55,790 bases of DNA from Acidimicrobiia bacterium (GTDB taxonomy: Bacteria > Actinomycetota > Acidimicrobiia > Spongiisociales > UBA11373): NCBI GenBank assembly GCA_040878325.1, contig JBBDMM010000004.1:48695-104484 (forward strand), in the 5' to 3' direction. This document shows positions 6,412 to 17,450 of this stretch, one piece after another. The translations under genes and the position numbers were made by a program. A model generated the notes under the pieces. That model was given only the letters and a program-made list of their open reading frames with translations, was not told the DNA's origin and searched no databases. Within the stretch, counting starts at the first letter, position 1. Every line of letters starts with the position of its first letter.

Positions 6412-7418
6412 GTGACTCGACCGAACTACTGGTGGATCTGGCTGCGGAACGACTCGGCGGCAAGGTGATCGCCGCCAACGACGAATTCTTCGCGCCCAAG
6501 GAGGGCCTCATCAGGGACGGCGACGCCGTCTGGGATCCCGACAAGTACACGTCGCGGGGCAAGTGGATGGACGGCTGGGAGACGCGGCGCCGCCGCGAGC
6601 CGGGCCATGACTGGGCGATCGTCGCCATGGGCATTCCCGGCATCGTTCGCCAGGTCGTGGTCGACACGGCCCACTTCACCGGCAACTACCCCGAATCCGC
6701 CTCGGTCGAGGCCATCGATCTCGCCGGGAATCCGTCCGTCGTCGAGTTGGTGCGTGACCCGGGCCGGTGGAGCGAGATCGTCCGCCGCACGCCGTTGCGC
6801 GGCGACACCACCAACGAGTTCGCCGCCTCCCCACCCCTGCGCATCACCCACCTGCGGCTCGTCATCTACCCGGATGGCGGGGTGGCCAGGCTGCGGGTGC
6901 TGGGTGACCCGGTGCCACCGCAAGGAGTGCTCGAGGGCGACCGGGAGCTGGATCTCGCCCTCCTCCACCACGGCGCCCGCGCGATCGACTGTTCCGATCG
7001 CCACTACTCGTCGCCAAACCGGATGCTGGTGCCCGGCCGGGCCCGGGGAATGTGGGACGGGTGGGAAACCCGACGGCGCCGCGGTGCCGGCAACGATTGG
7101 GCGGTGATTCGCCTGGCCGGGCGAGGCGTCATCGATCGGATCGAGTTCGACACCGCTCACTTCAAGGGGAACGCCCCCGGGTCGGCCGATGTCGAGGCGA
7201 TCGATGCCCCCGGAGCCTCCATCGGTGAGTTGCGGCTGGCGGGGTGGACGCAACTGGTCCCCGAGAGTCCGGTCAAGCCTGACTCGCGACACAAGTGGAC
7301 GAAGCTCGCCGACGTCGGCCCCGTCACCCACCTCCGGCTCAACATCCATCCCGACGGCGGAGTCGCCCGCCTCCGCGCCTTCGGGCGCAGCGACCAGCCA
7401 TGGACCTCGATCGGCTGA
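6408..7418 (+). CDS. alc: Allantoicase
   Basis: A 336-residue enzyme that cleaves allantoate to ureidoglycolate and urea. It has the internal two-fold repeat typical of the family: a GKWMDGWETRRRREPGHDW block near residue 48 is matched by MWDGWETRRRRGAGNDW near residue 215. Each is followed by a DTAHF(T/K)GN segment (residues 85 and 248), and each half ends with THLRL..(Y/H)PDGGVARLR. The ATG overlaps the allantoinase stop (ATGA), and the 3' end overlaps the next gene by 19 nt, so translation is probably coupled. Confidence 0.95.
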   Translation: MSDSTELLVDLAAERLGGKVIAANDEFFAPKEGLIRDGDAVWDPDKYTSRGKWMDGWETRRRREPGHDWAIVAMGIPGIVRQVVVDTAHFTGNYPESASVEAIDLAGNPSVVELVRDPGRWSEIVRRTPLRGDTTNEFAASPPLRITHLRLVIYPDGGVARLRVLGDPVPPQGVLEGDRELDLALLHHGARAIDCSDRHYSSPNRMLVPGRARGMWDGWETRRRRGAGNDWAVIRLAGRGVIDRIEFDTAHFKGNAPGSADVEAIDAPGASIGELRLAGWTQLVPESPVKPDSRHKWTKLADVGPVTHLRLNIHPDGGVARLRAFGRSDQPWTSIG

Positions 7419-7900
7419 ACCGCCTCGACCCCGACGAGGCCCACGCGGCGTTACGCGATTGCTGCGGGTCGGGTGCTTGGGCTACGGAGATGACGCTGCG
7501 CCGACCCTTTGCCTCGCTGGCCGAGCTTCTCGACACCGCCCGGTCGACATGGCGATCACTCGACCCCGCCGACCGCGAGGCGGCCTACGCCGCCCATCCA
7601 CGTATCGGCGAATCGGTGCCCGGCGACGATCGCCACCACGCCTGGTCGCGCGCCGAGCAGGGTGCAGTTGGCGAGGCGCCCGCGGGGGTCCTCGAGCGTC
7701 TGGACGCGTGTAATCGCGAATACGAGGCCAACTTCGGCCGGGTGTACCTGATCTTCGCCACCGGCAAGTCGGCCGAAGAGTTGCTGGCCCGTTGCCGCGA
7801 CCGGATCGCCAACGACCCCGAAGTCGAAGCCGCTATCGCCGCCGCTGAGCAGGAGAAGATCACCGATCTGCGTCTGCGCCGACTCGTGGGGATAGATTGA
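7400..7900 (+). CDS. uraD: 2-oxo-4-hydroxy-4-carboxy-5-ureidoimidazoline (OHCU) decarboxylase
   Basis: A 166-residue enzyme for the last step from urate to (S)-allantoin. The family motif HPRIGE near residue 67 with its catalytic His, and the C-terminal block EYEANFGRVYLIFATGKSAEE in modified form, are clear. The start at 7400 is inside the allantoicase 3' end in another frame, giving a 19-nt overlap. It works directly after HIU hydrolase, the next gene. Confidence 0.92.
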   Translation: MDLDRLNRLDPDEAHAALRDCCGSGAWATEMTLRRPFASLAELLDTARSTWRSLDPADREAAYAAHPRIGESVPGDDRHHAWSRAEQGAVGEAPAGVLERLDACNREYEANFGRVYLIFATGKSAEELLARCRDRIANDPEVEAAIAAAEQEKITDLRLRRLVGID

Positions 7901-7913
7901 GACGATGCCACGA

Positions 7914-7934
7914 GCCACCAGCCACCAGCCACCA
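7914..7934. repeat. Heptamer array GCCACCA x3
   Basis: Three perfect GCCACCA units fill the 42-bp gap between uraD and uraH inside the operon. The same unit occurs five times at 46837-46871. Confidence 0.92.
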
Positions 7935-7942
7935 GGGGCGAC

Positions 7943-8269
7943 ATGAGCCTGAGTACCCATGTCCTCGATACCGGGCGGGGGCGGCCGGCATCAGGTGTGT
8001 CGGTCCGGCTCGAGGCATTCGACGGGAATGGCTGGCGGCCGATGACGAGCGCCACCACCGATACCGACGGCCGCATCGGCGACCTGCTCGGTGAAGAGCC
8101 ACTCGTTCGCGGTGAGTACCGGCTGACCTTCGAGGTCGGGGCCTACCTAGGGGACGACGCCTTCTACCCGGAGATCGCGGTGGTATTTCGGGTCGATTCA
8201 CCCGAGGAGCACCACCACATCCCTCTTCTGCTGAGCCCGTTCGGGTATTCCACCTACCGCGGGTCCTGA
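7943..8269 (+). CDS. uraH: 5-hydroxyisourate hydrolase (transthyretin-like)
   Basis: A 108-residue transthyretin-fold enzyme that hydrolyses 5-hydroxyisourate to OHCU. Motifs are the N-terminal LSTHVLDTGRGRPASG with the catalytic His, and the C-terminal tetrapeptide YRGS that closes the active site. The length is normal for the bacterial family. Its stop shares one base with the puuD start (TGATG), linking it to the enzyme that makes its substrate. Confidence 0.96.
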   Translation: MSLSTHVLDTGRGRPASGVSVRLEAFDGNGWRPMTSATTDTDGRIGDLLGEEPLVRGEYRLTFEVGAYLGDDAFYPEIAVVFRVDSPEEHHHIPLLLSPFGYSTYRGS

Positions 8270-9426
8270 TGCTCGACCTTCACCTGCAGGAATGGCTCGA
8301 CATCGCCATGCGGTGGATTCATGTGATCGTTGGGATCAGCTGGGTCGGGACGTCGTTCTACTTCAACTGGCTCAACAACCGGGTCCGGCCTCCGGCGATC
8401 CCCGAGACCGGGGTGGCGGCCGAACTGTGGTCGGTTCACGGCGGCGGGTTCTACCGGGTAGTCAAATACGACGTGGCGCCTGCACGGCTTCCCGACACCC
8501 TCCACTGGTTCAAGTGGGAGGCCTATGCCACATGGCTGAGCGGGGTGTCGCTGCTCTTCATCGTGTACTACCTGGGACCGAGCGGGATCGCGATCGACCC
8601 GACCAAGTTCGAGATGACGCGGTGGGCCTTGGTCGCCCTCGGCCTCGGTTCGCTGGTCGTCGGGTGGTCTATCTACGACGGGTTGTGTCGCACTCCGCTG
8701 GCGCGGCACCCGGCCTGGTTCGCCCTCATCGGCCTCGGATTGGGCGCGGGGGTGGCGTTCGGGTACTCGCAGGTGATGACCGGCCGGGCGGCCTACATCC
8801 ACACCGGGGCGCTGATCGGAACCCTGATGGCGGCGAACGTCTTCCGGGTCATCATCCCGTCGCAACGCCAGATGGTCGACGCGATGACCCGGGGCAAAAC
8901 CCCCGACGCCGAGGCAGGCCGCGACGCCGCCCGCCGGTCGCTCCACAACAACTACCTGACGCTGCCGGTGGTCTTCATCATGGTGAGCGGGCACTTCCCG
9001 TCGACATTCGGGGACCGCTGGAACTGGGCCATCCTCGCCGGCATCGCCGCGTCCGGAGCGCTGGTGAGGCACTGGTTCAATCTTCGAGGTCAGGGCCACC
9101 GCAACGTGTGGATCCTGCCGGCCGCGGCCCTGATCATGATCGCCCTGGCGGTGGTCACTCGACCCGCTTCGACCGACCAGATCGTGCCGCCACAGATCCT
9201 GTCGATAGTCCAGCAGAGGTGTGTGCCATGCCATTCGGCGACGCCGACCGAGCCCGGTTACACCGAAGCCGCCAAAGGAATTCTCCTCGACACCGAATCG
9301 GCGGTGCTGGCTCGCAGAAGGATCATCGGACCGCTGGTCGAGTCCGGGTACATGCCCTTCGGAAACGCCACCGCCATGACCGAGGAAGAGCGGGCGCTGG
9401 TGGTGGAGTGGGCAGAAGGCGGCTAG
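8269..9426 (+). CDS. puuD: Membrane urate oxidase PuuD with C-terminal cytochrome c
   Basis: A 385-residue protein of the membrane-bound urate hydroxylase family first recognised as a cytochrome-c urate oxidase in Agrobacterium-type bacteria. About eight hydrophobic segments cover residues 10-305, starting with the conserved RWIHVIVGISWVGTSFYFNW and including several His and Trp residues (WSVHGGGFYRV, LHWFKWEAY, LHNNYLTLP, ALVRHWFN). The C-terminal 80 residues are a c-type cytochrome with CVPCH near residue 319 and a likely axial Met in YMPFG. It would oxidise urate to 5-hydroxyisourate and pass electrons to the respiratory chain rather than make H2O2 as soluble uricase does. It is the last gene of the operon; a hairpin follows. 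Confidence 0.95.
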   Translation: MLDLHLQEWLDIAMRWIHVIVGISWVGTSFYFNWLNNRVRPPAIPETGVAAELWSVHGGGFYRVVKYDVAPARLPDTLHWFKWEAYATWLSGVSLLFIVYYLGPSGIAIDPTKFEMTRWALVALGLGSLVVGWSIYDGLCRTPLARHPAWFALIGLGLGAGVAFGYSQVMTGRAAYIHTGALIGTLMAANVFRVIIPSQRQMVDAMTRGKTPDAEAGRDAARRSLHNNYLTLPVVFIMVSGHFPSTFGDRWNWAILAGIAASGALVRHWFNLRGQGHRNVWILPAAALIMIALAVVTRPASTDQIVPPQILSIVQQRCVPCHSATPTEPGYTEAAKGILLDTESAVLARRRIIGPLVESGYMPFGNATAMTEEERALVVEWAEGG

Positions 9427-9440
9427 GAAGCCGCCCGGAG

Positions 9441-9458
9441 GGGCGCTGTCAGGCGCCC
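9441..9458. terminator. Convergent hairpin between puuD and the DUF6986 gene
   Basis: GGGCGC, a 6-nt loop and GCGCCC lie between the two convergent stop codons and overlap the end of the minus-strand gene. No U tract follows on either strand. Confidence 0.45.
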
Positions 9459-10783
9459 GTCCGATTCTGCAATATCTTCACGAACGATCTGCCGCGCAGG
9501 TCCTCCAGCGTCACCCCGGTGCGCCGGGCTGCTTCCTCTTCGCCTATCGCTCCGCTGGCGATGGCTCTGAAGAAGAAGTTGAGCAGCCCCTGGCCGGTGG
9601 CGGCGTCGTCGAAGACATCGCCGACCAGCGTCGCCTGGGCAGCTTGCTCCACGAAGTTGTGCAGCCGGGTGGCGGCGGCATCGAGACTCTCCAGGTAGAA
9701 GGCCTGAACCGCGGCGTACCGGGTCACCAGTTGGGCAGGGTGGACATCCCATCCTTGATAGAAGCCATGCACCAGCGAGTGACGGACCTCGTCGAAGTGA
9801 AGGCGCCAAGCGTTGTGGACTGCACGGGTGTTCGCGGCCAATTCATCCGGCGTGGTCGCTTCCGGGTGGACGGGCACCGGCAGCACGTTGGTGGCCCCGT
9901 CGGAAAGCCAGATGCCGGTCCCGGACAGTGCCACCTGCATGACGTGCCGGGCGAAGTCGCACGCCGGGTGGGTCATCCCCTGGTGCGCCGCGGTGATCTG
10001 ACACGAGGCGGTGTAGTCGTAGGTGCCGAAGTGTGCCGCAACGCATCGATCGCCCACGGCGCGGACCAGACGCGCCACCACCACCCGCCCCTCCTCGTCG
10101 ATTACGGAGCGAGTCACCTCGATCATCACCTCGGCCTTGATCGCCTCGGCCTCCAGCCCGAGCCGCTCTTCGAGCACCCCGAGTGCCTCGCCGAACACCT
10201 CCGCCTGCTCGGTGGACAACACCTTGGGAAGCGTCACATGCATCCGCGGGGGAAGCGCGCCCGTGGTACGGGAGACCAGTTCGCTGAAGAACAGGTCGAG
10301 GGTCCGGAACGCCCGCGCCCGCTGTTCGCGTCCGAATGGCTTGATCCGGATACCGATCACCGGAGGCAGCCCGCCTTCGGCCATTCCCCGGGCGACCTGC
10401 CCGGCGGCCTCGACCGCCACCTCGTCCTCTTCCGGGTCGGGCCGGGTGCCGAAGCCGTCTTCGAAGTCGATCCGAAAGTCCTCGACCGGCTCCCGCTCCA
10501 ACTTCTCGACGATTCGCGGGTAGAGGGTGGCGACAACCGGATCGCCTTCCCTGCCCAGGGCAACCGCCAGAGACTCCGGGTCGGGGGCGTATCGCTCGAG
10601 GGTCCTCAGCGCGACCGCCCCCAGCCGGGGGGCGGTATCCCACTTGAACAGCTGCGCACCGCCGTAGACGGTGTGGATCGGTTGCCGTTCCCCGGTATCC
10701 CCCGGGAACGCCTTGCCGGCGCCGTCGTCGTCGAGCCTCCGGGCAAAGGCGGCAAGGACGTCATCCGAGAAAGCGCCAGTCAT
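9449..10783 (-). CDS. HpcH/HpaI aldolase-like protein (DUF6986 type)
   Basis: A 444-residue protein resembling the citrate-lyase-beta / malate-synthase-like TIM barrel superfamily. Visible marks are FRIDFEDGFGTRPDPEEDE near residue 100 (acidic metal-site-like motif), MHVTLPKVLS, VMIEVTRSV and AAHFGTYDYTASC. Related actinobacterial proteins are often called DUF6986 and sit in purine-catabolism clusters. Here it faces the urate/allantoin operon convergently. Since glyoxylate is the end product of that route, an enzyme joining or releasing glyoxylate or ureidoglycolate is plausible, but the reaction is not established. The ATG at 10783 is chosen because it lies 7 nt after a TAGCGT hexamer; the GTG 9 nt further upstream overlaps that hexamer. 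Confidence 0.8.
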   Translation of the reverse strand: MTGAFSDDVLAAFARRLDDDGAGKAFPGDTGERQPIHTVYGGAQLFKWDTAPRLGAVALRTLERYAPDPESLAVALGREGDPVVATLYPRIVEKLEREPVEDFRIDFEDGFGTRPDPEEDEVAVEAAGQVARGMAEGGLPPVIGIRIKPFGREQRARAFRTLDLFFSELVSRTTGALPPRMHVTLPKVLSTEQAEVFGEALGVLEERLGLEAEAIKAEVMIEVTRSVIDEEGRVVVARLVRAVGDRCVAAHFGTYDYTASCQITAAHQGMTHPACDFARHVMQVALSGTGIWLSDGATNVLPVPVHPEATTPDELAANTRAVHNAWRLHFDEVRHSLVHGFYQGWDVHPAQLVTRYAAVQAFYLESLDAAATRLHNFVEQAAQATLVGDVFDDAATGQGLLNFFFRAIASGAIGEEEAARRTGVTLEDLRGRSFVKILQNRTGA

Positions 10784-10790
10784 CGGAGGC

Positions 10791-10796
10791 ACGCTA
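10791..10796 (-). promoter_or_regulatory. Leaderless -10 element TAGCGT
   Basis: On the minus strand TAGCGT is followed by 7 nt and the ATG at 10783. Confidence 0.6.
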
Positions 10797-11339: not shown

Positions 11340-11361
11340 ACGGAGGTCGGCCTCGCTGCGG

Positions 11362-11389
11362 ATACCCAATACGCAATACGCGATACGAC
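11362..11389. repeat. Heptamer array ATACGCA-type
   Basis: Four 7-bp units (ATACCCA, ATACGCA, ATACGCG, ATACGAC) lie between divergent hpt and the ABC exporter leader. Confidence 0.85.
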
Positions 11390-11477
11390 CGAGCGGGGCT
11401 GAACCGCCCAGAACGGCCGCCGACACGGCCAGGGGTTCGCCCACCCAGGGAGCGGGCATTGCGTGTAGTTCCCTAGC

Positions 11478-11491
11478 GAATTGCGAATTGC
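11478..11491. repeat. Heptamer GAATTGC x2 next to a CCGAGCGAAGCGAGG box
   Basis: Two GAATTGC units are followed directly by AACCGAGCGAAGCGAGGC. The same pairing of GAATTGC units with a GGCCGAGCGAAGCGAGGCC-like box recurs near 25581, 31025 and 46970. Confidence 0.85.
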
Positions 11492-11514
11492 AACCGAGCG
11501 AAGCGAGGCTGTGA

Positions 11515-11543
11515 TTGACACACCGCCCCGTCCCTGCGACAGT
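11515..11543 (+). promoter_or_regulatory. Sigma70-type promoter for the ABC exporter leader
   Basis: TTGACA at 11515-11520, a 17-nt spacer and GACAGT at 11538-11543. This is one of few places in the window with a consensus -35. The predicted start near 11550 leaves a roughly 150-nt leader before the exporter gene. Confidence 0.55.
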
Positions 11544-11563
11544 TCAGCGCCGTGGAGGCTCGT

Positions 11564-11599
11564 ATGCAGATGAGGATCACCCCGCCCCAGGCTCGTTGA
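11564..11599 (+). CDS. Putative leader peptide MQMRITPPQAR upstream of the ABC exporter
   Basis: An 11-codon open frame with a perfect GGAGG Shine-Dalgarno 5 nt before the ATG, immediately downstream of the TTGACA promoter. Two hairpins follow before the exporter start. The arrangement (short translated ORF, hairpins, then a multidrug-type ABC gene) is what ribosome-mediated attenuation needs. The peptide is not a family I can name; the PP pair is a possible stalling site. Confidence 0.5.
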   Translation: MQMRITPPQAR

Positions 11600-11604
11600 C
11601 CGCG

Positions 11605-11679
11605 CACGTCCCTTCCCGGACGTGATCGCCGGCCAACTGGGCCGAACCCCACCGATCCCGCGTCGCGCGCCGCGCGACG
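11605..11679 (+). promoter_or_regulatory. Two-hairpin leader, possible attenuator
   Basis: Hairpin 1: CACGTCC (11605-11611), 6-nt loop, GGACGTG (11618-11624). Hairpin 2: CGTCGCGCG (11661-11669), one base, CGCGCGACG (11671-11679), ending about 10 nt before the AGGAG ribosome-binding site of the exporter gene. Neither has a U tract, so control could be translational or Rho-dependent. Confidence 0.4.
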
Positions 11680-11697
11680 ACTCTCTCAGGAGCCTCG

Positions 11698-13452
11698 ATG
11701 ATTCCCGTACGCGCCTACTGGCGCCTTCTCAAGAAGTATCTGCGCCCTCTCCGGGCACGCGTGGTGCTGCTCGCCGCCCTGCTGTTCACCGGCATCGCCT
11801 TCCAGGTGGCCAATCCTCAGCTGATCAGGGCGTTCATCGACGGCGCCCAGGAGGGCCAGGACATCTCGCGGCTGCTGTCGTATGCGGCGATCTTCATCCT
11901 GCTCGCCGTCGGCCACCAAGCGCTCAGCGTGTTGTCGACCTACTTCGCCGAGCAGGTGGGGTGGACGGCGACCAATGAGATGAGGGCGGAGCTCGCCGAG
12001 CACCTGCTCGAACTCGACATGTCCTTCCACAAGACGAAGACGCCCGGCGAGTTGATCGAGCGAATCGACGGCGACGTGACCACGCTCTCGAACTTCTTCT
12101 CGGCGTTCGTGATTCACGTCGTCGGCAATGCCGTACTACTCGCCTCGGTGATTTTCCTCATGTGGCGAGAGCATCCGCTGATCGGCATCGGGATGACGGT
12201 GTTCGCGCTCGTCGCCGGCGTGCTGATGATCGGGCTGCAAGCGATCGCCATCCCCTGGTGGCGGGAGGTGCGCGCCAAGCGGGCCGAGTTCTTCGGGTTC
12301 CTCGGCGAGCAGCTCGGCGGAACCGAGGACATCCGCGCCAACGGGGCGGTGCCCTACATGATGCATCGCTTCACGCTGCTGCACCGCGAGTGGCTGCCGC
12401 TGGAAGTCAGGGGCCGCTGGGGCTTCTCGATGCTCTGGGCGACCTCGATCGCGGTCTACGTGTTCGGCCTCGCCCTGGTGTTCGGTATGGGCTCGCGGCT
12501 GTTGACCGCCGGCACGATCACGATCGGGTCGGTCTACCTGGTGTTCCACTACACGGAACTGATCCGCCACCCGATCGACCAGATCCGGACTCAGATGGAG
12601 GACCTGCAGAAGGCGGGGGCGGGAATTGCCCGCGTCGAAGAACTGTTCGCCGCCCGCACCCAGCTCCCCGAGACCGGCACCGGACGGCTCCCCACCGGCC
12701 CGCTCGCCCTGGAGTTCGACGGCGTCACCTTTGCGTATCGCGACGACGCCTCCGACGGCGAGTCGGTGCTCGACGAGGTCGACCTCACCATGGAACCCGG
12801 ACGGGTGCTGGGATTGCTCGGCCGCACCGGGTCGGGCAAGTCGACCATGGCCCGTCTAGTCACCCGCCTGTACGACCCGACCAGTGGCGTCATCAGGGTC
12901 GGCGGCAGCGACCTCCGCGACATCGAGCGCGACGACCGCCGCGCCCGGGTCGGGATGGTAACCCAGGAGGTGCAGCTGTTTCGCGCCACCGTGCGAGACA
13001 ACCTGACCTTCTTCGACTCGAGCGTCGACGATGAACGCATCTGGCAGGTGCTCCTCGAGCTCGGCCTCGGCGACTGGGTTCAGGGCCTTCCGAACGGCCT
13101 CGATGCGATGCTCGAATCGGGGTCGGGCGGGCTGTCGGCCGGGCAGGCCCAGCTGCTGGCGTTCGCCCGCATCTTCCTCCGCGATCCGGGATTGGTGATC
13201 CTCGACGAGGCTTCGTCGCGGCTCGACCCGGCGACCGAGTTGCTGATCGAGCGCGCCGTCGATCGCCTTCTGACCGATCGCACCGGGATCGTGATCGCCC
13301 ACCGCCTGGCAACGGTCGACCGCGCCGACGACATCCTGATCCTCGAGCGGGGGCGCGTCGTCGAGCACGGGCCGCGCGAGACGCTCGCCGCCGACCCCGA
13401 TAGCCGATTCTCCACCTTGCTCCGCACCGGCATGGAGGAGTTGCTCGCATGA
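11698..13452 (+). CDS. ABC exporter half-transporter, subunit A (TMD-NBD)
   Basis: A 584-residue half-transporter. A six-helix exporter-type membrane domain fills about residues 1-325, followed by the ATPase domain: Walker A GRTGSGKST near residue 379, signature LSAGQ near residue 479, Walker B LVILDEASS with the catalytic Glu, and the H-loop VIAHRL. The signature departs from LSGGQ by one residue while the Walker B is intact. It overlaps subunit B by ATGA and a Shine-Dalgarno (CAGGAG) precedes its start. Together the two form a heterodimeric exporter of the multidrug/lipid type; the substrate is unknown. Confidence 0.93.
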   Translation: MIPVRAYWRLLKKYLRPLRARVVLLAALLFTGIAFQVANPQLIRAFIDGAQEGQDISRLLSYAAIFILLAVGHQALSVLSTYFAEQVGWTATNEMRAELAEHLLELDMSFHKTKTPGELIERIDGDVTTLSNFFSAFVIHVVGNAVLLASVIFLMWREHPLIGIGMTVFALVAGVLMIGLQAIAIPWWREVRAKRAEFFGFLGEQLGGTEDIRANGAVPYMMHRFTLLHREWLPLEVRGRWGFSMLWATSIAVYVFGLALVFGMGSRLLTAGTITIGSVYLVFHYTELIRHPIDQIRTQMEDLQKAGAGIARVEELFAARTQLPETGTGRLPTGPLALEFDGVTFAYRDDASDGESVLDEVDLTMEPGRVLGLLGRTGSGKSTMARLVTRLYDPTSGVIRVGGSDLRDIERDDRRARVGMVTQEVQLFRATVRDNLTFFDSSVDDERIWQVLLELGLGDWVQGLPNGLDAMLESGSGGLSAGQAQLLAFARIFLRDPGLVILDEASSRLDPATELLIERAVDRLLTDRTGIVIAHRLATVDRADDILILERGRVVEHGPRETLAADPDSRFSTLLRTGMEELLA

Positions 13453-15227
13453 CGACGCGCCGCATATCCACCGCCCAGCTCGGTCTCGGTCTCATCAAGT
13501 ATCAGAAGGGTCGCTACGCCGCCAACGTGCTCGCCTGGGCCTCGATCTGGGTGATGCCGATGATCCCCGCGCTGATCACCAAGGCGTTCTTCGACCGGAT
13601 CACCGGAGAGCAGACGGCCGGCTTCGACGTGCCCACCCTGGTGTGGCTCGTGGTGGTGTACGCCTTCGGGCGCATCACCGTGATGTTCCTCGGGATGTGG
13701 AATGACGCCCACCTGATGTTCCGGATCGCCACGCTGATGCGTCGCAACATGCTCGAGCGGATCTTTGAACTGCCGGGCGCCCAGTCGATGAAGGAGTCGC
13801 CGGGCGAGGCGATCAGCCGGTTCCGCGACGACGTCGACGAGAACGTGGAGTCGTTCTCGTGGACCGTGGACATGATCGGGCTGTTCACCTTCACCGGACT
13901 GGCCATCTGGATCCTGGTCGGCATCGACGGGCTGCTGACGGCCCTGGTGTTCGGCCCCTCGATCGCGGTCGTCTACCTGGCGGCGATCGCCCGGCATCGC
14001 ATCAAGAGGTACCGCGAGGCGTCGCGCGAAGCGACCGGACGGATCACCGAGGCGCTGGGCGAAACGTTCGGTTCGGTGCAGGCCATCAAGGTCGCCGGGG
14101 CCGAGAAGCCGATGATCGCCCACTTCCGGATGCTCAACGACCGGAGGCGGACCGCGGCGATCAAGGACAAGGTCCTGACGGCGATGCTCGAGTCGCTCTT
14201 CTGGAACACGATCAACATCGGGACCGGGATCATCCTGATCGTCGCCGCGTCGGCGATGCGGTCGGGTGAGTTCACCGTGGGTGAGTTCGCGGTGTTCGTG
14301 TACTTCCTCGGATTCGTCACTGACGCCGGATTCTTCCTCGGCCTGTTCATCGCCCGGTACCAGCAAGCCGCCGTGTCCTTCGGACGGATGGTGGAGCTGA
14401 TGGGCGACGACGCTCCCCCGCTGCGGCTCGTCGAGCCAGTGCCCCTCCATCTCACCGGCGAACTCCAGCCCCCGGATGTGGTGCCGCCGCATCTGGCGCC
14501 CCTCGAGACGCTCGAAGTGCGCGACCTCACCTTCCACTACCCGGCTTCCGACGACGGCATCGACGATGTGTCGTTCATGGTGCCGGCTGGCTCGTTCACG
14601 GTGATCACCGGGCGAGTCGGGGCGGGCAAGACGACCTTGCTGCGGGCGATCCTGGGGCTGGTGAAGCCGCAACGCGGGGAAGTGGTGTGGAACGGTGAGG
14701 TGGTCGAGGAGCCGGCTGAGTTCTTCATCCCTCCGCGATCGGCCTACACCCCCCAGGTGCCGCGGCTCTTCTCCATGTCCCTGATGGAGAACCTGCTGAT
14801 GGGGCGGCTCGACCATGAGACCGAGGTGCAGAGCGCGCTGGCCTCGGCGGTGATGGAACCCGACGTCGACGCGATGCCCGAGGGCCTGGCGACACTCGTC
14901 GGCCCGATGGGAGTCCGCCTTTCCGGAGGACAGGTTCAGCGCTCGGCGACTGCCCGTATGTTCGTCCGCCGCCCCGACCTGCTGGTGTTCGACGACGTCT
15001 CGAGCGCCCTCGATGTCGAGACCGAACGCGTGCTGTGGGAGCGGTTGTTCCGGGAACGGTCCGGGGTCACCAGCCTGGTGGTGTCGCACCGTCACCCGGC
15101 ACTGCAGCGGGCCGATCAGATCGTGGTCATGCATCAGGGCCGAGTGGCCGCGATCGGACGGCTCAACGACCTGCTGGCGACCAGCCCCGAGTTCCGCGCC
15201 CTGTGGGAAGGCGAGGCAGTCGACTGA
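13449..15227 (+). CDS. ABC exporter half-transporter, subunit B (TMD-NBD)
   Basis: A 592-residue partner of the preceding gene. The membrane domain covers about residues 1-315. The ATPase domain has Walker A GRVGAGKTT near residue 391, canonical signature LSGGQ near residue 494, and Walker B LLVFDDVSS in which the usual catalytic Glu is replaced by Asp. With subunit A this predicts one competent and one degenerate ATP site: Walker B of B plus LSAGQ of A would form the weak site. That asymmetry is known for heterodimeric exporters of the TM287/288 type. Confidence 0.93.
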   Translation: MTTRRISTAQLGLGLIKYQKGRYAANVLAWASIWVMPMIPALITKAFFDRITGEQTAGFDVPTLVWLVVVYAFGRITVMFLGMWNDAHLMFRIATLMRRNMLERIFELPGAQSMKESPGEAISRFRDDVDENVESFSWTVDMIGLFTFTGLAIWILVGIDGLLTALVFGPSIAVVYLAAIARHRIKRYREASREATGRITEALGETFGSVQAIKVAGAEKPMIAHFRMLNDRRRTAAIKDKVLTAMLESLFWNTINIGTGIILIVAASAMRSGEFTVGEFAVFVYFLGFVTDAGFFLGLFIARYQQAAVSFGRMVELMGDDAPPLRLVEPVPLHLTGELQPPDVVPPHLAPLETLEVRDLTFHYPASDDGIDDVSFMVPAGSFTVITGRVGAGKTTLLRAILGLVKPQRGEVVWNGEVVEEPAEFFIPPRSAYTPQVPRLFSMSLMENLLMGRLDHETEVQSALASAVMEPDVDAMPEGLATLVGPMGVRLSGGQVQRSATARMFVRRPDLLVFDDVSSALDVETERVLWERLFRERSGVTSLVVSHRHPALQRADQIVVMHQGRVAAIGRLNDLLATSPEFRALWEGEAVD

Positions 15228-15280: not shown

Positions 15281-15652
15281 TTAGGTCACATCGGGGCCGC
15301 CGACTCCGAGCCTCGCGGCCGCTGCTGCCAGTGGTCGATCGAGAGTCCAGAGATCGTGGGAGCCGAGGCGGCACGACGCCAACAGGTGGATGTCGACCCA
15401 TCCCAGGCCCTGCCCCCAGAGCCGATGAGCGTCGAGCAAACCGCGCGCCTCACGGTGCTCCGCCACCGGGGCCTCAGCGAGCCGATCGAGGAGCCCGAGG
15501 ACCTCGTCGCGGCCCCTCAGCGTGCCGCAAGCGAGTTCGCCGACTACGAAGGGATGGAGTACAACGAGTGCTTCGTCGAGCAGGCCGGCCAGTCGCGGCG
15601 ATGACACCCTGAAGTGGTCGATCCAGACGGATGTGTCGACGAGGGTGGTCAC
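15281..15652 (-). CDS. vapC: VapC-family PIN-domain toxin
   Basis: A 123-residue PIN ribonuclease. The acidic active-site residues are visible: Asp in LVDTSVWIDHF at residue 6, Glu in FVVGELACG near residue 39, Asp in GWVDIHLLAS near residue 94, and Asp in LWTLDRPL. It starts with GTG directly after the stop of vapB (TGA then GTG), the usual antitoxin-toxin order. The target RNA cannot be read from sequence. Confidence 0.9.
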   Translation of the reverse strand: MTTLVDTSVWIDHFRVSSPRLAGLLDEALVVLHPFVVGELACGTLRGRDEVLGLLDRLAEAPVAEHREARGLLDAHRLWGQGLGWVDIHLLASCRLGSHDLWTLDRPLAAAAARLGVGGPDVT

Positions 15653-16085: not shown

Positions 16086-17450
16086 GTGTCCACCCTCCTC
16101 GTGAAGAACGCCCATGTGCTCGTCGCCATGGACGAAGGGCGGCGGGAGATCCCCGGTGGCGGGTTGTTCGCTCGCAAGGGCGTCATCGAACAAGTGGGGC
16201 CGACCTCCGAGCTTCCCAACAATGCTGACCAGGTCTTCGACGCCGCCGGAATGCTGGTGCTCCCCGGGTTGGTGAACACCCACCACCACCTCTATCAGTC
16301 CCTCACCCGGGCGGTCCCGGGCGCCCAGGATGTGCCGTTGTTCGATTGGCTCCGCACCCTCTATCCGATTTGGGCGAACCTCGATCCGACGTCGGTAACC
16401 CTCGCCACGACGCTCGGACTGCTGGAACTCGCCAAGTCGGGCTGCACCACCGCCTTCGATCATCAATATCTGTGGCCCAACGGATCGCGGGTCGACGACC
16501 AGGTGGAGGGCGCCCGCGAGGTCGGGATCCGCTTCCACGCTTCGCGCGGTTCGATGAGCCTCAGCGAGAAGGACGGTGGATTACCCCCCGACTCGGTGGT
16601 CCAGGACCACGACACGATCATCGCCGACACCATCCGGGTCATCGAGCAGTTCCACGATCCTCACTTGGGCTCGATGGTGCAGATCGCGGTATCGCCGTGC
16701 TCTCCTTTCACCGTCACCGAGGAGTTGATGCGCGATTCGGCCGACCTAGCTCGGGAGAAGGGCGTACGTCTCCACACGCACCTCGCCGAGACCAAGGACG
16801 AGGAGAGATTCACCATCGATCGGTTTGGCAAGCGTCCGATCGCGTACGCCGCCGACCTGGGGTGGCTCGGCGACGACATCTGGTTCGCTCATGCAGTGTT
16901 CGTCGAACCCGGTGAGATCCTGCAGTTGGCGGCCACCAGGACAGGAGTCGCCCACTGCCCGTCGTCGAACATGCGGCTGGCTTCGGGAATCGCCCCGGTT
17001 CCCGCCTATCTCGCCGCCGGAGTGCCAGTGGGGCTGGGGGTCGACGGTTCGGCCAGCAACGACTCGGGCAATCTCCTCGCCGAGGCGCGTCAGGCCCTGC
17101 TACTGGGACGGCTCGGCGTCAGCCCCGGCATCGGAGCCGGACCGCAGATGCCGGCTCGGACCGCTCTCGAAATCGCCACCCGCGGCGGCGCCGAGGTGCT
17201 GGGACGAGGCGACATCGGAGCGCTCGAGACGGGACGCATGGCCGACTTCTTCACCCTCGACCTCGGCCGGGTCGAGTTCTCCGGCGGCCTTCATGACCCG
17301 GTGGCCGCAGCAGTCATGTGCTCCCCGGCACCCGCCCGTGATGTCTTCGTCGGCGGCGAGCCGGTGATCGAGGACTACCAGCACCGATCGATCGACGAGG
17401 AAACACTGGTGGAATACCACAATCGAGCTGCTTCAGCCCTGATGGGCTGA
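16086..17450 (+). CDS. 8-oxoguanine deaminase (amidohydrolase family)
   Basis: A 454-residue zinc amidohydrolase of the ATZ/TRZ group, best matching 8-oxoguanine deaminase, which converts 8-oxoguanine to urate. Motifs are LPGLVNTHHHLYQSLTRAVP near residue 58 (metal-binding HxH plus the YQSLTRA signature), GCTTAFDHQYLWPNG, RFHASRGSMSLSEKDGGLPP, LHTHLAET, AHCPSSNMRLASG and LGVDGSASND. Because its product is urate, it feeds the PuuD operon about 7 kb upstream. The start is GTG with a leaderless -10. The last codons and the stop lie in a perfect hairpin. Confidence 0.88.
   Translation: MSTLLVKNAHVLVAMDEGRREIPGGGLFARKGVIEQVGPTSELPNNADQVFDAAGMLVLPGLVNTHHHLYQSLTRAVPGAQDVPLFDWLRTLYPIWANLDPTSVTLATTLGLLELAKSGCTTAFDHQYLWPNGSRVDDQVEGAREVGIRFHASRGSMSLSEKDGGLPPDSVVQDHDTIIADTIRVIEQFHDPHLGSMVQIAVSPCSPFTVTEELMRDSADLAREKGVRLHTHLAETKDEERFTIDRFGKRPIAYAADLGWLGDDIWFAHAVFVEPGEILQLAATRTGVAHCPSSNMRLASGIAPVPAYLAAGVPVGLGVDGSASNDSGNLLAEARQALLLGRLGVSPGIGAGPQMPARTALEIATRGGAEVLGRGDIGALETGRMADFFTLDLGRVEFSGGLHDPVAAAVMCSPAPARDVFVGGEPVIEDYQHRSIDEETLVEYHNRAASALMG

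Follow-up and report, generated by a model that had tools for sequence, protein, structure and literature searches.

Does the short open reading frame (ORF) ahead of an ABC exporter operon in an Acidimicrobiia bacterium control that operon, and if so, what does its translation report? The locus lies within a window of 55,790 nucleotides, by which we mean the whole stretch of DNA that was analysed, and the 183 nt in question end directly before the exporter start codon. A first-pass annotation had proposed a translated leader peptide and two stems that suit induction by ribosome stalling, with a Pro-Pro pair as the slow point. We conclude that the 183 nt are probably the leader of the exporter operon, subject to ribosome-mediated attenuation through translation of the short ORF. 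The evidence for this reading lies in the layout of the leader, its recurrence at orthologous loci and the folding of the RNA behind the ORF, and the alternatives are weighed where that evidence bears on them.

Layout of the leader and the exporter operon

All elements of the leader lie on the forward strand. Direct reading places the promoter at 11515-11543 within TGCGACAGT, as TTGACA (-35, 11515-11520), a 17-nt spacer and GACAGT (-10, 11538-11543), followed by the Shine-Dalgarno (SD) sequence GGAGG at 11554-11558, the 11-codon ORF MQMRITPPQAR with its TGA stop at 11564-11599 and the exporter SD AGGAG at 11688-11692, ahead of the ATG at 11698. The promoter, both ribosome-binding sites and the ORF thus sit where the first-pass annotation had put them. 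A generic promoter scan detected no site at the leader promoter in the window, because the -10 box fits TATAAT poorly; an alignment of 12 family members nevertheless retains TTGACA and, from an extended -10, CTG...T.

Folding of the RNA yields three local hairpins rather than the two stems first described. Hairpin 1 (11605-11624, CACGTCC / GGACGTG) stands right behind the leader stop, hairpin 1b (CGGCC / GGCCG) follows at 11630-11644, and hairpin 2 (CGTCGCGC / GCGCGACG), which has no U-tract, lies at 11661-11679, 5' of the exporter ribosome-binding site. In a possible long-range helix (11592-11643), CAACTGGGCC would pair with the end of the leader and its stop codon; hairpin 1 would lie inside this helix, whereas hairpin 1b could not form alongside it. 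Region 11550-11720 folds with -69 kcal/mol (z -2.09 against shuffles). Between the leader ORF and the exporter the window has no canonical intrinsic terminator of hairpin and U-tract, and Rfam riboswitch and leader families gave no match in the window at gathering score.

Sequence searches and reading identify the operon as two ABC exporter half-transporter genes on the forward strand, encoding subunit A (11698-13452, 584 aa) and subunit B (13449-15227, 592 aa), the start of B overlapping the end of A. By eye, subunit B carries DD after Walker B, as against DE in subunit A. DD in place of DE in one subunit is typical of heterodimeric exporters, and the adjacency of the two genes, one with a catalytic site that looks degenerate by eye, identifies the exporter as one of these.

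The surroundings were assigned by eye. Upstream on the opposite strand lies a hypoxanthine phosphoribosyltransferase-like gene, and purine/urate breakdown genes flank the exporter at 7295-10792 and 16086-17450 (OHCU decarboxylase, HIU hydrolase, PuuD-like membrane protein, malate synthase-like and guanine deaminase-like). Directly 3' of the operon, a minus-strand ORF of 123 aa (15281-15652) resembles a PIN-domain (VapC-like) protein. Dispersed short intergenic repeats occur at 11361-11392 (AATACGCAATACG...) and 11476-11510 (AATTGCGAATTGC...CGAGCGAAGCGAGG). Searched against the window's own genome, the intergenic sequence matched 22 times, once to the region itself and otherwise always to one of these two repeat stretches, with no further nucleotide copy of the leader among the matches.

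The leader recurs at orthologous exporters

A search with subunit A (E <= 1e-190) found the exporter in 63 of 138 genomes searched from the window's order. Read by hand, 55 of these 63 have a leader ORF of 7-21 codons before the exporter. By family, the leader is present at 12 of 13 loci in that of the window, at all 4 in f8, at 39 of 42 in f2 and at none of 4 in f5. Six loci lack it (L013, L022, L023, L025, L028 and L031), and the upstream regions of two more (L151, L162) are cut by contig ends. The first-pass annotation had made its proposal depend on conservation at orthologous loci, and there the ORF, its start, its SD, its stop position and the hairpins do recur. Within the window's family the homologous ORFs of the 12 members have 9, 10 or 11 codons, and in all 12 the stop lies at the homologous position and is UGA. 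At the looser threshold of E <= 1e-100, subunit A matched in 41 of 59 relatives, some of the matches being paralogs of about 42-47% identity; the four paralog loci viewed (L035-L038) showed no convincing leader.

GC-rich intergenic DNA can carry short ORFs anywhere, and a chance origin was therefore put against a fixed criterion: an ATG or GTG ORF of 7-22 codons with a strong SD, ending 70-145 nt before the exporter. Four of the 63 upstream regions were dropped as short or containing N. Among the 59 usable regions, 47 scored, whereas 100 dinucleotide-shuffle sets averaged 1.03 and never exceeded 6, a contrast in which the margin counts for more than the exact numbers, the criterion having been chosen after the leaders were seen. 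The reverse complements of the same 59 regions gave four. Of the 18 window genes with at least 150 nt upstream only this exporter scores, and among 101 genes with such a gap at other loci (exporters included) no non-exporter gene does. That the ORF is there by chance is scarcely credible against these figures. With its conserved promoter and a short ORF under its own SD, presumably transcribed together with the exporter genes, the locus shows one hallmark of ribosome-mediated attenuators with a leader peptide.

Some of the loci without a leader have other features upstream. In L013, the one family member concerned, repeat-like sequence fills the upstream stretch as if the leader had been replaced. 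Upstream of the four f5 exporters (L022, L023, L025, L028) there are palindromes, TTGCATTTGCAA / TTGCAATTGCAA in type, that resemble a repressor operator, and in L025 and L028 the divergent upstream gene is acyl-CoA dehydrogenase-like by eye.

Translation of the leader and drift of its peptide

Over 832 leader codons, GC at the third codon position is 0.77, compared with 0.64 and 0.62 at the first and second, and it reaches 0.83 in the leaders of the window's family; the 60 nt 3' of the leaders show no such periodicity. The peptide itself seems little constrained. Within most groups pN/pS lies around 1 (from 0.73 to 1.46; group D has 2.05), and it is not lower in the true frame with any consistency, the other frames sometimes having the smaller value. 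Since pN/pS is near 1, either the ORF is maintained while the peptide drifts, or RNA pairing constrains the synonymous sites, and we reject peptide-level selection beyond what the RNA explains. A product with a function of its own is accordingly very unlikely: sequences are similar inside groups (MFRNPTTAR and MFRTPITAR, for example), yet the peptides have only 7-21 residues and diverge strongly between groups.

The Pro-Pro pair fared no better as a conserved pause: of 62 distinct leader peptides only 4 contain it, and we reject it as such. Stalling of the chloramphenicol/linezolid type follows a rule of Ala, Ser or Thr before the P-site residue; residue 5 of group B fits, other groups do not consistently, and the rule remains a lead. 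The macrolide stalling motif Arg/Lys-X-Arg/Lys occurs in 24 of the 62 distinct peptides, a frequency that may be a by-product of GC-rich RNA.

RNA pairing behind the leader

Behind the leader, the RNA folds below shuffles in groups A, B, D, E and F (Stouffer z -3.6, -7.5, -2.5, -4.6 and -5.1), combined values that, with group members related by descent, are optimistic on independence; group C is not clearly below shuffles. The hairpins of group F show compensatory changes in 4 of 16 pairs.

Folding of the window's family (group A) indicates that RNA 35-50 nt further on is able to pair with the end of the leader and its stop codon, to the exclusion of hairpin 1b. This stop-region pairing exceeds that of shuffles (Stouffer z -4.05, n=12); it reaches p <= 0.04 individually in 5 of the 12 (L011, L012, L015, L016, L017), and in the window p is 0.15. 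The 3' half of the family's leaders likewise pairs with downstream RNA (z -3.2). As for the hairpins, the core of hairpin 1, GTCC-N6-GGAC, is retained in L009, L010, L015 and L017, and most relatives have a hairpin of different sequence at the place of hairpin 2. The consensus fold is weak (RNAalifold on 8 of the 12 leaders, -3.5 kcal/mol).

An arrangement like that of ermC, in which the hairpins conceal the exporter ribosome-binding site until a ribosome stalls in the leader, would agree with the position of hairpin 2, 8 nt 5' of the exporter SD, and with the full window fold, in which the exporter SD pairs with the leader SD region. In family A, however, SD-to-SD pairing is no better than shuffles (z -0.23), and in most of the 16 leaders folded, access to the exporter SD barely shifts with the position of the ribosome. 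The folding thus predicts no consistent freeing of the exporter site by a stalled ribosome; we set that effect aside and regard translational attenuation of this kind as improbable.

A terminator and a candidate antiterminator in subgroup B

Intrinsic terminators, a GC hairpin with a U-tract behind the leader stop, were found in 8 of the 55 leaders scanned, all of them in Acidimicrobiia subgroup B (leaders such as MIRRTQPNTTPAALARARFRF); the other 47 have no canonical terminator, and the terminator scan found none with a U-tract in the window's family. In the eight subgroup B leaders, codons 11-15 can pair with the 5' arm of the terminator and a conserved GCGAG before it. When the RNA is folded before the 3' arm exists, the 5' arm is paired at 0.83-1.00 as long as the P site is on codons 1-6, and mostly at 0.4-0.8 once it is on codons 7-18; Pro7, which stands at this boundary, is present in all eight. 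The antiterminator helix is paired in 94.3% of cells; 8 of its 11 pairs never vary, and compensatory changes are absent. Two features speak against such a switch: the pairing comes back with the ribosome at the last codons, and in L050 without a ribosome the antiterminator occupancy is only 0.48. At equilibrium, whole-leader folding favours the terminator at nearly every ribosome position, so that the switch in subgroup B would need to be kinetic.

These structures bear on a further alternative, that the ORF senses nothing and either loads ribosomes on the mRNA or permits reinitiation on the exporter. A freely drifting peptide (pN/pS about 1) would be expected of such an ORF, and reinitiation at leaders has been proposed in general terms, with a leader effect described as peaking at a stop-to-start distance of 10-11 nt in Actinobacteria (PMC4833913). 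That distance is 98 nt in the window and 72-209 nt over 63 catalogued leaders, and neither loading nor reinitiation explains the hairpins, the terminator and the antiterminator; we consider the idea distinctly improbable.

The main rival to our preferred explanation is a Rho-dependent version of the switch, in which a ribosome within or at the end of the ORF masks a C-rich Rho loading stretch that the departing ribosome exposes. Rho-dependent attenuation of this type is familiar from TnaC. The window has no U-tract, UGA is the stop of all 12 family leaders, and behind the window's leader C prevails over G (0.48 against 0.28). Four of 12 members of family A (L015, L017, L018, L020) and 3 of 9 of group C (L032, L129, L133) have a C-over-G peak higher than every CDS control, whereas the window's own peak reaches only the 5% level of these controls and that of several family members does not stand out. 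On balance we hold the Rho-dependent version to be rather unlikely.

Leaders beyond the order

Outside the order, too, some exporters have a leader before them. Such leaders were found in Salsipaludibacter (L065/L139) and at three loci of more distant actinobacteria (L142, L143, L144). In Bipolaricaulota/Acetothermia they stand before the exporter in L096 (the same record as L164), L105 and L165; the Bipolaricaulota search matched 5 of 60 genomes, with a leader in L164 and L165 and none in L166-L168. In ANGP1/Armatimonadetes, 8 of 61 genomes matched, with leaders in L106 (= L169), L170-L173, L175 and L176, and only 50 nt of upstream sequence at L174. By eye, the ANGP1 leaders are followed by a hairpin of the type CGGCCACGGG...CCCGTGGCCG, which has a T-rich tail in several members. 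Among 25 loci viewed, mostly from Paenibacillus, Cohnella, cyanobacteria and Chloroflexi, a convincing leader was present only in L096, L106 and L113, and the Paenibacillus homologs of the exporter had none at the loci viewed.

The 3' half of the leader is again involved in pairing. In Bipolaricaulota it pairs with downstream RNA (z -3.5), and in groups C and G, ANGP1 and Bipolaricaulota it pairs with the leader's own SD (z -3.5 to -4.6). At L120/L149/L154/L155 and L106/L170-L172/L176 the 3' codons are complementary to the SD region of the same leader. Going by this complementarity, such leaders may limit their own translation.

Discussion

We propose a model in which the ribosome on the leader ORF decides whether transcription reaches the exporter. 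RNA polymerase would start near 11550 and a ribosome would translate the 11-codon ORF. With unimpeded translation, the ribosome would reach the end of the ORF and block the 3' end of the leader from pairing downstream, the downstream hairpins would form, and most transcripts would end before the exporter. When the ribosome is stalled or slow early in the ORF, the 3' end of the leader would be free to pair downstream, the terminating fold would be avoided and the exporter would be made. We infer that the window uses this switch too; having no U-tract, it would depend on Rho or a U-less hairpin for termination, and the signal would be translation inhibitors. The core of the first-pass idea, a translated leader whose ribosome controls the exporter, is supported by the conserved layout and by the terminator and antiterminator of subgroup B; it gains nothing from the Pro-Pro pair, from peptide conservation or from a freeing of the exporter ribosome-binding site.

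A broader proposal is more tentative: possibly, a single exporter clade carries a leader-ORF attenuator across several high-GC lineages, in which the ORF and the RNA pairing are selected while the peptide and the terminator type drift, and the leader gauges general ribosome speed or occupancy rather than the arrest of a particular nascent chain. The lineages of this clade are Acidimicrobiia, Salsipaludibacter, the Bipolaricaulota group, the ANGP1/Armatimonadetes group and a few other actinobacteria.

Several known systems offer comparison. One is bmrBCD of Bacillus subtilis, where the leader peptide BmrB precedes the heterodimeric ABC exporter BmrC/BmrD, and for which control of a multidrug ABC exporter by a leader peptide was first reported (PMC4191407). 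As described there, it shares with our loci a small ORF that is translated and alternative stem-loops ahead of a two-gene ABC exporter, and with subgroup B also an intrinsic terminator and a competing antiterminator. It differs in that its terminator lies inside the leader ORF, whereas here the hairpins lie 3' of an ORF of 7-21 codons and the window has no U-tract, and in that induction of bmrCD by lincomycin, erythromycin and chloramphenicol was measured (PMC4191407). In Streptomyces, lmrC and tiaA/are5sc are likewise presented as actinobacterial upstream ORFs with terminator/antiterminator folds before resistance genes; these control ABC-F ribosome-protection proteins, while the window leader precedes an exporter (PMC8546547, PMC12421871). 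For are5sc and tiaA the same reports show stalling at the start codon. The translational attenuators ermC and cat-86 are also described with a leader peptide before a resistance gene, as here, but ermC works by freeing a ribosome-binding site (PMC4191407), for which the predicted folds of our leaders give no support.

In the open-licence literature we found no report of such exporter leaders in these lineages and none of leader peptides in Acidimicrobiia. A known attenuator logic would thereby gain wide reach, extending, as far as genome sequences can tell, to dozens of uncultured Acidimicrobiia and to other high-GC lineages. The loci form a comparative series in which the layout is constant and ORF length, peptide and terminator type vary, which makes the need for a peptide-specific stall testable. 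The recurrence of this logic suggests that these exporters respond to translation stress, and most likely the cell raises exporter production when its ribosomes slow, for example under the action of an antibiotic.
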